Under the pieces are notes generated by a model, which worked only from the letters and a program-made list of their open reading frames with translations, did no database searches and was not told where the DNA came from. The position numbers were made by a program, and so were the translations under genes. From an uncultured Alphaproteobacteria bacterium (GTDB taxonomy: Bacteria; Pseudomonadota; Alphaproteobacteria; HIMB59; GCA-002718135), in NCBI GenBank assembly GCA_902605135.1, contig CACLBK010000011.1:1-32696 (forward strand): a DNA stretch of 32,696 nt, in the 5' to 3' direction. This document shows positions 20,002 to 26,339 of the stretch, one piece after another. How positions within the stretch are numbered: position 1 is the first letter of the stretch; the number at the start of each line of letters is the position of its first letter.

Positions 20002-21171
20002 ATGCATTCAAAAATACTAAGTGAAAAAATTCAAAATATTTTTGAAAAATATAAAATTCCATCATTATCTGTAATTATTACAAATAAAGATCAGAATTTA
20101 TATGAAAACTATTTAGGTTTTAAAAACTCTAAAAATAAAACTCCTTTTGATGAATTATCAATTGTTAGAATTGCATCTATGACGAAGCCTATTACATCGC
20201 TATGTATTTTCCAATTAATTGAGCAGAATTTAATTAGTTTAGAAACAAATTTACAAGACATTGATAAGCGATTCTCTGATGTAAAAATCATCAAAAAAAC
20301 AGATAACAAAATTAATTACATAAAACCTAAATCAAATATAAAAATTAAGCACTTATTAAATCATACCTCAGGTTATGGATATCAGTTCTTAAATCCTGAA
20401 ATTAAATACTTAGTTGATAATAAATTATTACAAGATTTAAAAGACGATGGAGCAGATTTTCTAGATGCTCCTATTTTATTTGAACCTGGAGAAAGATGGA
20501 ATTACGGCATTGGAATAGATATATTAGGTTATATAATTGAAAAAATTTCGAACAAAAAATTAAATGAATATATGAAAGAAAATTTATTCAATAAACTAGG
20601 TATGAATAATACCACTTTTCATTTAGATGATACAAAATTTAAAGATCTTGCATATGTATATAATTACTCTCAAGATCAAATTAAAATTGATCAAGAAAGA
20701 GCTGATGAGCAAGAAAATAAAATAAATAAAACTTTTCATGCAGGGGGTGGAGGATTACTGTCAACAACTCGAGACTATGCTAAATTTATGAGATTATTTC
20801 TAAAAGAACAAAATGAAATTATTTCTCAAAAATCAATAAATTTGATGAAAAGTAATCAAATAGGATCATTAGAAGTTAAAAGAATGCCTTCAGTTGATGC
20901 TGAGTTATCCGCTTCTTTAGACTACGACGATAATATTGAAAAGAAATTTGGATATGGTTTTATGATTAATAATCAAAAAACAAATGAAGGTCGTCCAAAA
21001 GGTAGTATATTTTGGACAGGAATTTTTAATAGTTTTTTTTGGATAGATTTTGAAAATAAAATTGGATGTGCAATATTCATGCAAATGCTACCTTACTTAA
21101 ATGAGATTTCCCTCAAAACATATAATGAAATAGAAACTGCTATTTATCAAAATATTGACACAAAAAAATAA
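20002..21171 (+). CDS. Beta-lactamase-like (class C/esterase) serine hydrolase
   Basis: 389 aa; IASMTKPIT (SxxK), HTSGYGYQ, WNYGIGIDILGYIIE (YxN-like), HAGGGGLLSTTRDYAKF. Confidence 0.9.
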   Translation: MHSKILSEKIQNIFEKYKIPSLSVIITNKDQNLYENYLGFKNSKNKTPFDELSIVRIASMTKPITSLCIFQLIEQNLISLETNLQDIDKRFSDVKIIKKTDNKINYIKPKSNIKIKHLLNHTSGYGYQFLNPEIKYLVDNKLLQDLKDDGADFLDAPILFEPGERWNYGIGIDILGYIIEKISNKKLNEYMKENLFNKLGMNNTTFHLDDTKFKDLAYVYNYSQDQIKIDQERADEQENKINKTFHAGGGGLLSTTRDYAKFMRLFLKEQNEIISQKSINLMKSNQIGSLEVKRMPSVDAELSASLDYDDNIEKKFGYGFMINNQKTNEGRPKGSIFWTGIFNSFFWIDFENKIGCAIFMQMLPYLNEISLKTYNEIETAIYQNIDTKK

Positions 21172-21558
21172 TTAACATTTATCACTTTCCATTTCTTGTT
21201 TTCTCATTGGCATAGAATCAATAATTTCAAAAAGTCTTAACAATATTTTATCATCAGAGCTAAAATTTTTAATTTCCCCATCATAACCTATTAGCCAAAT
21301 ACCTTTTTTACCTTTAATAAATTTTGGAGTATCAAATTTCTTATTTAAAAATTTTTCAAAATAAATAATCTCTAATTTTCTATCATTAATTTTACATTTA
21401 TTACTTATTATGAATTTTTTAGTTTGAATAAGTAATTCATCCTCTTTATTTTCATAAGATACGATCAGTAGTCTTTTTTGCCAATTAAGTTCTGAGATTT
21501 TTTTTGCCATTATTTCAAAATTTGTAAAAATTAATAAAAATAAAAATATATATTTCAT
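21172..21558 (-). CDS. DUF4174-like domain protein
   Basis: 128 aa with N-terminal signal-like segment; LNWQKRLLIVSYEN, GIWLIGYDGEIK and IIDSMPMRKQEME at the C terminus resemble DUF4174. Confidence 0.75.
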   Translation of the reverse strand: MKYIFLFLLIFTNFEIMAKKISELNWQKRLLIVSYENKEDELLIQTKKFIISNKCKINDRKLEIIYFEKFLNKKFDTPKFIKGKKGIWLIGYDGEIKNFSSDDKILLRLFEIIDSMPMRKQEMESDKC

Positions 21559-21672: not shown

Positions 21673-22830
21673 TTAATTATTTTTTAAACTGTTTTTATTA
21701 ATTAGATAATACAACGCTAATCCATTAAAAGCCCAAATAAAAGAAAGTAAGTACATGTTAAATGTTAAGCCCATAAATTCTGCCAAATAACCAACTATAA
21801 CTGGTCCAAATATAAAACCACCAAAACCTAAAGTTAATAAATTTGATATTGTAAGACTAATTGATTCATTTGTTTCACTAATTGCTTGTCTTAACACAAT
21901 AGCAATAAAATTTGCCGTTCCAAACCCAAAGATTATTATTCCACTTAAAATTATATATAAGTTCATGGTGAATATTGAGATAAATAAAATTATACAAGCG
22001 ATTATACTAAAATAACATCCAATAACTATTTCACCATATCTATTGATTAAATTACTTCCTGAAACTCTTGCGATTATTTCACCACCATTAAAAAACATTA
22101 TTACTAACCCTCCAAGAAATAATGGTGCTCCTAAATCTTTTGTAAGCCATACTGGTGACCAATCTATAATAATTCCTATAGTTGCAAAGTTCATCATTAA
22201 TAAAAAACCATAAATTAGAATATTATTCTGTGGCAATTTAAATTTTTCTATTTTTTCATTCCCTTCTAATTTCTTTTTAAAACCAAAAAAATAAAACATA
22301 GTAGAGTATAAAAGAAATAAGCTTCCTACAATTATGAATGTAATTCTAGGATCAGGTATTAAATTCATAAAAATACCTGCTGCAAGTGCACCAAATAATG
22401 ATCCAGCAGAAAAAAAAGCCTGAGTCATTGGAAGTAAAACTCTACCTGTTTTCTGTTCAATAATAGCTATCTGAGAATTAATTATAGGAAAAATAAAACC
22501 CGCACCAATACCAATTGGTATAAAAAAAAGAGTAAAATAAAAATAATTAGGAGCACTAGCTATAGCAAGAGGCAAATACGAGAAAATAAATATTCCCAAT
22601 ATTATTGTATTTGTTGTTCCTATTTTTGGAACAATAACTCTAGCTCCTAGTTGATTGGCAAATAGGTTAGCAAACCCAAAAGCACAAATTGATATACCTA
22701 GTTCAGATTCGGTTATATCTAAACGATCAATGTTCCAAGGAACATAAACAAAATATATACCAATCATAAACATTATTAAAAAAGCACCACCGAAACACGT
22801 AATTACTTCTTTCTGAAATTTTTCTTCCAT
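21673..22830 (-). CDS. MFS transporter
   Basis: 385 aa with about 12 hydrophobic segments; FIPIGIGAGFIFPIINSQIA and two-half MFS architecture. Confidence 0.85.
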   Translation of the reverse strand: MEEKFQKEVITCFGGAFLIMFMIGIYFVYVPWNIDRLDITESELGISICAFGFANLFANQLGARVIVPKIGTTNTIILGIFIFSYLPLAIASAPNYFYFTLFFIPIGIGAGFIFPIINSQIAIIEQKTGRVLLPMTQAFFSAGSLFGALAAGIFMNLIPDPRITFIIVGSLFLLYSTMFYFFGFKKKLEGNEKIEKFKLPQNNILIYGFLLMMNFATIGIIIDWSPVWLTKDLGAPLFLGGLVIMFFNGGEIIARVSGSNLINRYGEIVIGCYFSIIACIILFISIFTMNLYIILSGIIIFGFGTANFIAIVLRQAISETNESISLTISNLLTLGFGGFIFGPVIVGYLAEFMGLTFNMYLLSFIWAFNGLALYYLINKNSLKNN

Positions 22831-22898: not shown

Positions 22899-22931
22899 AA
22901 AAATCAGTAGGAAATTGTCCTACTGATTTTT
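22899..22931 (-). terminator. Rho-independent terminator of the minus-strand paralog cluster
   Basis: AAAATCAGTAGGA-AATTG-TCCTACTGATTTT stem-loop with a T-rich tail on the minus strand, directly 3' of the 22938..23552 gene. Confidence 0.82.
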
Positions 22932-22937
22932 AATTTT

Positions 22938-23552
22938 TTAATTCCAAGTAGTTTCTAAAACTCTTGCAAGAGTCATTCCTCTAGGTTCTGTTTCATCTAA
23001 AAATTCTATATGATTTGACCAAAAGTTTTCACCATTTAGTTTATCTTGTGCAAGACCATAATCTTTCATGTTGTTAAAACGAACTCCAAATCCATAAGAG
23101 TCATTATCATTTCCATTCAATCTTCCAACAGTGCCACCTGTTGCTCCATTTTCCATCCAAGCTTTAATAAAAATTTCACCTTTAGATTGAATTAATTCAG
23201 CATCTTTATGGTAGAACATCCAATTAGCAAATACTGGTTTTACTCCTGGATCAGGGGGCATATTGTGAGTCATTGGTTCGTAAAAATTGTTTGTTTCCCA
23301 ATTAGTATCAGCAAAATATGGCTCCATGTCAGAAGCAAAATTTTCATCATTTGATATTTTATCATCTACTTCCCCGAAATGAGCATAATTTTCATAACCA
23401 ATATTAACAGTGTATGATCCATTATTTTTTCCAAGATGACTTAAAATTGCCGATCCTAATGCTCCATATTTTTTAAAATATATCGAAGCCGTATTAAACG
23501 CCTTAATAGCATTTGCGTTAGATATTCTATAAGTCCAACTACCTACTATCAT
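22938..23552 (-). CDS. Conserved hypothetical protein, paralog A of a tandem family (probable duplicated ferredoxin-like/DABB fold)
   Basis: 204 aa; NANAIKAFNTASIYFKKYGA...GKNNGSYTVNIGYENYAHFGEVDD aligns by eye with the two paralogs downstream; AAAGGAGGT Shine-Dalgarno. Confidence 0.85.
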   Translation of the reverse strand: MIVGSWTYRISNANAIKAFNTASIYFKKYGALGSAILSHLGKNNGSYTVNIGYENYAHFGEVDDKISNDENFASDMEPYFADTNWETNNFYEPMTHNMPPDPGVKPVFANWMFYHKDAELIQSKGEIFIKAWMENGATGGTVGRLNGNDNDSYGFGVRFNNMKDYGLAQDKLNGENFWSNHIEFLDETEPRGMTLARVLETTWN

Positions 23553-23692
23553 AAAAACCTCCTTTTTTTACAAGACTATTAATTTTTAGCTTTAAAAAAA
23601 TATTAAAATTAAATTTTATGTGGACAATTCAAAAGATTGAATAATTATTTAAAATTAATAAAATTAAATTTTTATTATTAAAATTTAGTTTG

Positions 23693-23715
23693 AAGCAGGA
23701 ATAATATTCCTGCTT
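23693..23715 (-). terminator. Stem-loop between the YdhR-like gene and paralog A
   Basis: AAGCAGGAAT-AAT-ATTCCTGCTT perfect inverted repeat just 3' of the 23722..24039 gene (minus strand). Confidence 0.7.
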
Positions 23716-23721
23716 GATCAA

Positions 23722-24039
23722 TTAGGATATTGCTTTTGTTGCTGCTCCTGCAATTATTGAAGGGCCATCAATCACACCATGTTCTTTAGTAGTAAAGTTA
23801 CTAAAATATTCATTTGTAGATAAAAACTCAAATATTGGGCCTTTTTTATACTTCTCAAGACTTTCTTCATCTTTAAAAATATATACTCCTCCAAAAATAT
23901 TATCACTTTCATCACCTATGAAATATTTTGATATTAGTCCTTCGACCCCTCTAAAATCCATTGCATCTATGTGCGCTTGAGCTTTGAAGTCATCAATGCT
24001 TAAATTTTTAAGATTAAAATTGATTATCAATATTTTCAT
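23722..24039 (-). CDS. YdhR-like putative monooxygenase (dimeric alpha/beta barrel) family protein
   Basis: 105 aa; FRGVEGLISKYFIGDESDNIFGGVYIFKDEESLEKYKKGPIFE resembles YdhR-type DABB proteins; ATGA overlap with the upstream gene. Confidence 0.72.
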   Translation of the reverse strand: MKILIINFNLKNLSIDDFKAQAHIDAMDFRGVEGLISKYFIGDESDNIFGGVYIFKDEESLEKYKKGPIFEFLSTNEYFSNFTTKEHGVIDGPSIIAGAATKAIS

Positions 24040-24665
24040 GATTTAAATCTCTCAAATTTTAAACTTCTACCATTAAAATTTTTTATAATTTTAATTTTTG
24101 AATGATAATCCGAAAGATCTTTACCATAAGAACTTTCTCCCATTTTATCCCAATTAGCTCCTAAGTCTTCCATTGATTTAAATCTGGCGCAAAACATGAA
24201 TGTATTATTAGATGCATAATCACCTCCACTTATTCGATGAATATCTATTCCTGTACAACCTCCATCTTGATAATATTTCCAATCTGCTTTATGACTATCT
24301 CTTACAGCTTGAACATCATTGCATTCAAAAATGAAATTTGAAAAAACCTCAGGTGATTGATCACCTTCTATATTGCCAGCCATCAAATTTAGATTATATG
24401 TTTCAATTAAATGGGTATCACTTAAATTGTTTGCCATAATTTTATCCATTTCACTATCTGGAGCATTCCACATATCATCCATTTTTCCATATGCTTTCAT
24501 GTTTTCAAAGCCTACTGCAGTTATAAAAGATCCATTATCTGCACCTGTTGTGATGAACATATTAATCCAATCTGCTCCTGCATCTTTATGAAACTTAGAA
24601 ATCTTTCCAAAAGAATCATAAGCATTTTCAAAGTTTGTTCTATATTTCCATGCTACAATCATCAT
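24036..24665 (-). CDS. Conserved hypothetical protein, paralog B (probable duplicated ferredoxin-like/DABB fold)
   Basis: 209 aa; FENAYDSFGKISKFHKDAGA...GADNGSFITAVGFENMKAYGKMDD; GGAGGAAAT Shine-Dalgarno; start at 24665 or 24662. Confidence 0.85.
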   Translation of the reverse strand: MMIVAWKYRTNFENAYDSFGKISKFHKDAGADWINMFITTGADNGSFITAVGFENMKAYGKMDDMWNAPDSEMDKIMANNLSDTHLIETYNLNLMAGNIEGDQSPEVFSNFIFECNDVQAVRDSHKADWKYYQDGGCTGIDIHRISGGDYASNNTFMFCARFKSMEDLGANWDKMGESSYGKDLSDYHSKIKIIKNFNGRSLKFERFKS

Positions 24666-24677
24666 ATTTCCTCCTTT

Positions 24678-25292
24678 TTAATAAATATCTCTTCTAATTA
24701 CTCTGGCATTATAATTAAGATGAATACTTAAGTTTGCATAATAATCTTTATGACTTGCCCAATAATCTGGAGAATTTTGGCTAGCATCCATGCACTTACC
24801 TAATTCTTGCATACTGTTAAATCTTGCAGCAAATAAATATTGATTATTTCTATCACCAAACATTCTATGAATTGCAATTCCTGAGGCACCATTTGACATG
24901 TAGTGTTTTTCATCAATTTCAAAACTTTTTTTTATAGCATCCACATCTGGATGACTAAAAACAAAATGTGCCCAAACAGGCATTTGCTCAGTAGCACCTT
25001 TAATATTTCCAATCAATTCAGTTAAATAAACAGCTTCAACTAATTGATTGTTTACAAAATTTGGCTGCATTTTTTGCCACCATTCTGGAGATGAAGCCCA
25101 AGCATCATCATTTTTTCCAAATGCTTCATAACTTTCAAATCCTGCTACAATAGTAAATGTATTATCATCACCACCAATATTATGCGTAACATTAGTCATT
25201 CGAGCTCCACTTTCTTTAAACCAAGGCGAAACTTTATCAAACATATCTACAGCATTTGCGTAGTCTGTTCTTATTTTCCATGTCGCAAACAT
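24678..25292 (-). CDS. Conserved hypothetical protein, paralog C (probable duplicated ferredoxin-like/DABB fold)
   Basis: YANAVDMFDKVSPWFKESGA...GGDDNTFTIVAGFESYEAFGKNDDAW; start moved from 25373 to 25292 (MFATWKIRT) given AAAGGAGGTATTTATG and homology with paralog N termini. Confidence 0.86.
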   Translation of the reverse strand: MFATWKIRTDYANAVDMFDKVSPWFKESGARMTNVTHNIGGDDNTFTIVAGFESYEAFGKNDDAWASSPEWWQKMQPNFVNNQLVEAVYLTELIGNIKGATEQMPVWAHFVFSHPDVDAIKKSFEIDEKHYMSNGASGIAIHRMFGDRNNQYLFAARFNSMQELGKCMDASQNSPDYWASHKDYYANLSIHLNYNARVIRRDIY

Positions 25293-25487: not shown

Positions 25488-26339
25488 ATGAGTATTGAAA
25501 AAATTACACTAGGATATTGGAGTACTAAAGGTTTAGGATCAGCTTCAAGGCAAATGATAATTTATGCTGGAGTGCCCCTTATTGCAAAAATTTATAGACT
25601 AATTCCAAAATTAGAGAATAATTCCCTAACTTATGATGGTAGTGAATGGCACGAAAAAGATAAAATTATTTTAAAGAAAAAAAATAGTTTAATTAATTTA
25701 CCTTATTTACTATTTAATGAGGGAAGTAAAGAAAAAATAATCGCTCAATCTATTACCTGTTTAGCTTATCTTGGTAAGAAATTTAATATGTTTGGAGAAA
25801 ACTCTAATGAAGAATTAGATTGCAATCAATTCCTTCAAGAAACTGTTGATTTAAGGAATATAGTTACAAGATTTGCTTATACGCATTTTGAAAATGAAAA
25901 TGATGAATTGAATGAAGCCTCAACTGTCTTCAATCAAGTCTTTGAGCATTCAAATGCTGGAAAGTTACAAAAATACGAACATTGGCTTAGTAAAAAAAAA
26001 AATACAGAAACTAAACTATTTCTAATAGGTAATAATATTTCTTCACCAGATTTTAATTTGTTCGATACGTTAGAACTTTATGTCGAATTTTTAAAATACT
26101 ATAGATTTGTAAAAAATATAAACTCTGATAATTTTTTTGAACAATTAGGATTTCCATTAGTTTCTTCATTTTTTTTAAATTTTAAAACCCTCCCTAAAAT
26201 GCAAAAATATTTTAATTCAATATTATATAAATTTCCTTATACAAATAAATCAGCTAAATTTGGATCTGGAAAAAATGGAATTACATGGGATCACAATAAA
26301 GAAATAGACTCAACACCTGAAGAAATAATTATCGAATAA
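25488..26339 (+). CDS. Glutathione S-transferase-like protein (Mu-like N-terminal domain, C-terminal extension)
   Basis: 283 aa; LGYWSTKGLGSASRQMIIYAGVPL...WHEKDKIILKKKNSLINLPYLLFNEG...QSITCLAYLGKKF. Confidence 0.8.
   Translation: MSIEKITLGYWSTKGLGSASRQMIIYAGVPLIAKIYRLIPKLENNSLTYDGSEWHEKDKIILKKKNSLINLPYLLFNEGSKEKIIAQSITCLAYLGKKFNMFGENSNEELDCNQFLQETVDLRNIVTRFAYTHFENENDELNEASTVFNQVFEHSNAGKLQKYEHWLSKKKNTETKLFLIGNNISSPDFNLFDTLELYVEFLKYYRFVKNINSDNFFEQLGFPLVSSFFLNFKTLPKMQKYFNSILYKFPYTNKSAKFGSGKNGITWDHNKEIDSTPEEIIIE

Follow-up and report, generated by a model that had tools for sequence, protein, structure and literature searches.

A swappable cassette of three fused-barrel DUF6854-like paralogs and a YdhR-family protein occupies a flexible island in a marine alphaproteobacterial genus

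We have described here a swappable cassette of genes, encoding three paralogous proteins (A, B and C) and a YdhR-family protein (Y), that occupies a flexible island bordered by a GST-like gene on one side and a DUF4174 gene on the other. Each of the three paralogs is a fused dimeric alpha+beta barrel of two domains, and together they represent a divergent branch of DUF6854; the superfamily is an ordinary one, and DUF6854, though known, is functionally unstudied. New here are the internal duplication of the paralogs, their link to DUF6854 and the solved structure 2PGC, the strict linkage of the YdhR gene, and the modular variation of the island. On balance we favor the reading that the fused barrels and Y are a cassette of cofactor-independent small-molecule enzymes catalyzing an ABM-type step. 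The features are listed in Table 1, in which positions refer to the window, the whole 32,696-nucleotide stretch of DNA analyzed.

Table 1. Features of the cassette and its surroundings in the window
Feature	Coordinates	Strand	Remarks
C, tandem DUF6854-like (fused dimeric alpha+beta barrel); opens the cluster	24678..25292	-	204 aa; PF21614 31.4 bits in two stretches; tree clade I
B, tandem DUF6854-like	24036..24665	-	209 aa; 12 nt past C; AlphaFold pLDDT 91.3; Foldseek top 2PGC
Y, YdhR-family (PF08803)	23722..24039	-	105 aa; 4-nt overlap with the end of B; Pfam 45.6 bits
A, tandem DUF6854-like	22938..23552	-	204 aa; tree clade II; 169 nt past Y; AlphaFold pLDDT 94.3; Foldseek top 2PGC
Hairpin, perfect 14 bp with T tail, just 3' of A	22899..22931	-	terminator-like site scan
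MFS transporter	21673..22830	-	PF07690 72 bits; recurrent neighbor of A-type paralogs
GST-like gene, divergent; fixed right island border	25488..26339	+	PF14497 24.5 bits
DUF4174 gene; usual left island border	21172..21558	-	PF13778 55.9 bits

The first-pass annotation placed all four open reading frames correctly on the minus strand, and the operon-like layout that it proposed is supported. A short gap separates C and B, and B and Y overlap, likely reflecting translational coupling. The best start for C is the ATG at 25292, preceded by AAAAAGGAGG, with an upstream TTG less favored, and the motif AGGAGG lies upstream of all three long genes A, B and C (direct repeats D6 and D14). C and the GST-like gene are divergent, with one short intergenic region between them. 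Seven terminator-like sites are present in the region relative to 1.2 expected, and the one following A, with its 14 pairs, is likely a bidirectional transcription terminator marking the end of the cluster; because this hairpin with its T tail stands after A, the MFS gene probably belongs to a transcription unit of its own.

A, B and C are true paralogs with homology far above chance, as had been proposed for these proteins of about 200 residues from their shared motifs, and pairwise blastp comparisons give E-values of 4e-18 (A-B), 6e-30 (A-C) and 3e-41 (B-C) at identities of 29–37%. The previously noted N-terminal motif is present exactly in A and C and departs at one position in B (I for T), and all three share the second block, F..RF..M..(L/Y)G. 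These blocks are real, but rather than being separate N- and C-terminal elements they are two copies of one domain. When an alignment of 45 family members was split in two, HHalign matched half to half with 98.1% probability (E 6e-14), whereas none of twenty column shuffles exceeded 1%, and each protein is therefore an internal duplication. Six residues (W6, D63, D64, R161, D173 and R200, in B numbering) are invariant in all copies, and no invariant His or Cys is found in the 45 sequences, the commonest His columns reaching only 73%. The tree contains two deep clades, each fully supported, with C, B and their kin in clade I and A and its kin in clade II; proteins of the two clades are only about 25% identical to each other. 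Ortholog comparisons bear out the suggestion that selection maintains the copies, with dN/dS of 0.07–0.15 for A, B and C and 0.03–0.08 for Y by a simple counting method, with dS near saturation in several pairs, and all parts of the cassette are under purifying selection.

The first-pass annotation did not recognize this family, and it is correct that the proteins belong to no characterized enzyme family; the family can nevertheless be placed, as a divergent branch of Pfam DUF6854 in which one relative, 2PGC, has a solved structure. PF21614 (DUF6854) has a curated cut-off of 27 bits, which C exceeds, and B (21.5 bits) and A (18.9 bits) match weakly below it in the same region; as Pfam scores go, A and B are tied to DUF6854 only through their homology to C. 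Structure models without a common fold had been named beforehand as an outcome that would refute the first-pass proposal, and the AlphaFold models of A and B share one fold, in which the order beta-alpha-beta-beta-alpha-beta occurs twice. The best solved structure in Foldseek searches is 2PGC for both B (TMq 0.78, E 3.6e-14) and A (TMq 0.81, E 2.3e-12). This marine metagenome protein (JCVI_PEP_1096685590403) is a tandem dimeric alpha+beta barrel and a canonical DUF6854 member, giving a strong double match to DUF6854 (125 bits in two stretches) and a weak but collinear match to our family profile (E 0.005). The tandem two-domain barrel of 2PGC is found both in the AlphaFold models and Foldseek matches of A and B and in the half-to-half profiles. 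The resemblance extends to length, two-domain tandem architecture and whole-chain fold (TM 0.78–0.81), although identity is only about 15% and 2PGC lacks the DD of domain 1; moreover, relative to Pfam DUF6854 as a whole, the full-length clade described here is seen only in one marine Alphaproteobacteria genus. The next best Foldseek matches (TM 0.5–0.7, 8–14% identity) include the putative monooxygenases 3MCS and 3F44, the anthrone oxidase-like 5F9P and PenE (9KDP), which are ABM-type fused barrels with tandem ferredoxin-like barrels of similar length. Weak profile matches to TetR 3DEW, Apo A-II and an oligoendopeptidase were partial and low-scoring, and we dismissed them.

The 105-residue product interleaved with the paralogs had been described as YdhR-like, and its PF08803 score, above the curated cut-off of 27.1 bits, makes Y a YdhR family member; against the NCBIfam equivalog PRK11118 it scores 28.6 bits where 103 are needed, so by that measure it is not an ortholog of E. 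coli YdhR. The YdhR fold is a barrel, and kinship of the DUF6854-like proteins with this family of putative monooxygenases extends at most to the superfamily fold, a sequence relationship being rejected by a profile-profile probability of 0.1%. The genetic linkage of the two is strict: in the genus, each of the 18 full-length YdhR genes immediately follows a DUF6854-like gene, and in the loci read the two either overlap by 1 to 13 nt or lie within 42 nt of each other. The YdhR proteins of the genus are at least 84% identical to Y, and the upstream partner belongs to either clade I or clade II; because Y is conserved and its partners come from two clades, Y either works with both kinds of partner or follows its partner by cassette recombination. 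We also note short YdhR remnants with a stop just 3' of a DUF6854-like gene in two genomes (G720:C2:53162-53230 and G773:C22:6836-6910), which are signs of recent loss.

The island extends from the GST-like gene, behind which lies a DsbA/HCCA-isomerase-like gene, to the DUF4174 gene, and the GST-like gene keeps its place in most genomes that carry the island as well as at empty sites. The order C-B-Y-A-MFS is found in the window and in L089, and also in L088, where the contig ends. Other arrangements containing C are C-A with or without MFS followed by an ABC transporter, C-A'-ABC transporter and C-A'-Y, and those lacking C are B'-B-Y, B-Y, B, A'-Y and A alone; the island may also hold the ABC transporter alone (L109 and L110) or be empty (L104 and L105). 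A and MFS are adjacent in seven genomes, and in adjacent paralog pairs the GST-proximal gene is always of clade I in the loci read. The alternative transporter cargo (for example L026:10555-14389, as well as L109 and L110) resembles sugar/polyol importers; its genes encode a solute-binding protein and a pair of long permeases, each of about 400 residues, with no ATPase gene beside them. In one genome (G030:C4:43994-44843) the GST-like border gene is decayed with several in-frame stops, and the adjacent DUF6854-like and YdhR genes are open. A beta-lactamase-fold hydrolase (20002-21171 in the window), which scores 252 bits to the methyl acetate hydrolase AcmB (cut-off 550), adjoins the island in several genomes. 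The HIMB59 order corresponds to AEGEAN-169 (PMC10308909, PMC10734472), and its phosphate genes are reported in flexible islands at a fixed place (PMC10734472); if the genus belongs to this order, modular island variation would therefore not be unusual.

At least one full-length copy is present in 45 of 102 genomes of the genus, these genomes being incomplete and absences therefore soft. Of the 45 carriers, 23 have one copy and 17 an adjacent pair; three (the window, G715 and G728) have a three-copy cluster, and in the remaining two the copies lie on separate contigs. A search of 399 genomes of the phylum with the clade profile found no full-length copy outside the genus and only two single-domain matches, whose neighbors in large genomes (L094 and L095) are uninformative; relatives sought with C in the sister family of the order likewise include no full-length copy. 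DUF6854 itself occurs in three of 289 genomes of the class. All loci in a wider contig scan come from single-cell genomes labeled as marine-type uncultured Alphaproteobacteria. A viral, plasmid or phage origin was rejected, with no relative of B in viral contigs and none of C in plasmids or phages; a Sulfitobacter plasmid relative of a distant tandem DUF6854 protein is annotated as a hypothetical protein and has no telling neighbor.

Elsewhere, DUF6854 genes keep company with cupin, ABM and SnoaL-like genes. In a distant alphaproteobacterium, the genes after a tandem DUF6854 gene encode, in order, a cupin, a 111-residue protein that matches no Pfam family, and a further cupin, and a divergent DUF6854-like copy in the genus of the window has, 24 nt on, a cupin that is 53% identical to the first of these. 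The arrangement of a DUF6854-like gene directly followed by a cupin is thus seen in two distant alphaproteobacterial lineages (L029:8711-9718 and L040:73-1104).

The superfamily, the lack of an invariant His or Cys, and the gene company of these domains lead us to propose that A, B and C are each small cofactor-independent enzymes that would bind a small organic substrate in the barrel cleft and carry out an ABM-type step such as oxygenation, cyclization, isomerization or decarboxylation. The paralogs could handle different substrates or successive steps, with Y, presumably translated off the same message, acting beside them, and the six invariant residues would be the first candidates for structure and catalysis. 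As proposed in the first-pass annotation, and judging from the superfamily and neighboring genes, the substrate may be a reactive or hydrophobic metabolite. Several considerations count against this reading: the same fold also serves in non-enzymatic binding and regulation, a sugar/polyol-type ABC transporter is hardly informative as to an aromatic or hydrophobic substrate, and the Foldseek neighbors include both ABM-type proteins and enzymes that use haem or iron, the putative assignment of A and B to ABM-type monooxygenases being one of fold similarity only.

There are several alternative models to consider. The paralogs and Y could constitute one hetero-oligomeric enzyme to which each gives part of the active sites, and the adjacent paralog pairs with gaps of 10–41 nt in 17 of 45 genomes, the constant GST-proximal position of the clade I copy, and YdhR starts that overlap or nearly abut the upstream gene are consistent with this. 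However, the heteromer formation raised in the first-pass annotation cannot be obligatory, because 23 of the 45 carriers show a single copy and A, B and C occur in varying combinations, with A-type and B-type copies also found alone. The YdhR partners are moreover drawn from two strongly diverged clades, and the models suggest that the fused two-domain chain already makes the barrel that other members of the superfamily build by dimerizing; we regard this model as unlikely. We are slightly more doubtful of a role in detoxification or stress, in which the proteins clear a reactive metabolite together with the products of the GST-like and DsbA/HCCA-isomerase-like genes. These are the usual neighbors, and the shared intergenic region of C and the GST-like gene is suggestive, but both genes stay in genomes without a DUF6854-like gene (L104, L105, L109 and L110), and DUF6854-like genes occur without either neighbor (L029, L034 and L037) or without the GST-like gene (L090 and L112). 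Because the border genes persist around an empty island, they tell us little about function.

At E<1e-4, Foldseek also matches haem- or metal-dependent enzymes of the chlorite dismutase, DyP, HmoB or sulfur oxygenase reductase type, although these matches are well below that to 2PGC. The absence of an invariant His or Cys implies that there is no conserved haem or iron ligand, and we rejected a haem or iron enzyme (Cld, DyP or SOR) since the conserved His ligands are not found in the 45 sequences; this class is by far the least probable of those considered.

Returning to cofactor-independent enzymes, DUF6854 and YdhR have known folds, and our literature searches found no paper naming DUF6854 and no functional study of YdhR. 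A more ambitious version, to which we give little weight, is that lineage-specific fused-barrel enzymes and YdhR form a cofactor-free oxidation/cyclization module whose specificity proteins are interchangeable and which abundant surface-ocean bacteria exchange as cassettes; if true, this would provide the first function for both DUF6854 and YdhR. The strict linkages, with YdhR behind a DUF6854-like gene in the genus and a cupin beside DUF6854 in two distant lineages, provide a short list of partner proteins, and natural islands carrying zero to three copies offer matched comparisons.

We also note that homologous cupins in the sister family sit among small proteins of about 100 residues. Within the genus of the window, a group of genes at L092:5412-8162 (and in L093) encodes two DUF3764-like proteins, one SnoaL_2-like protein, two ABM proteins and one single-domain DUF6854 relative, and this group, which is near a GMC oxidoreductase, is a second small-barrel cluster.
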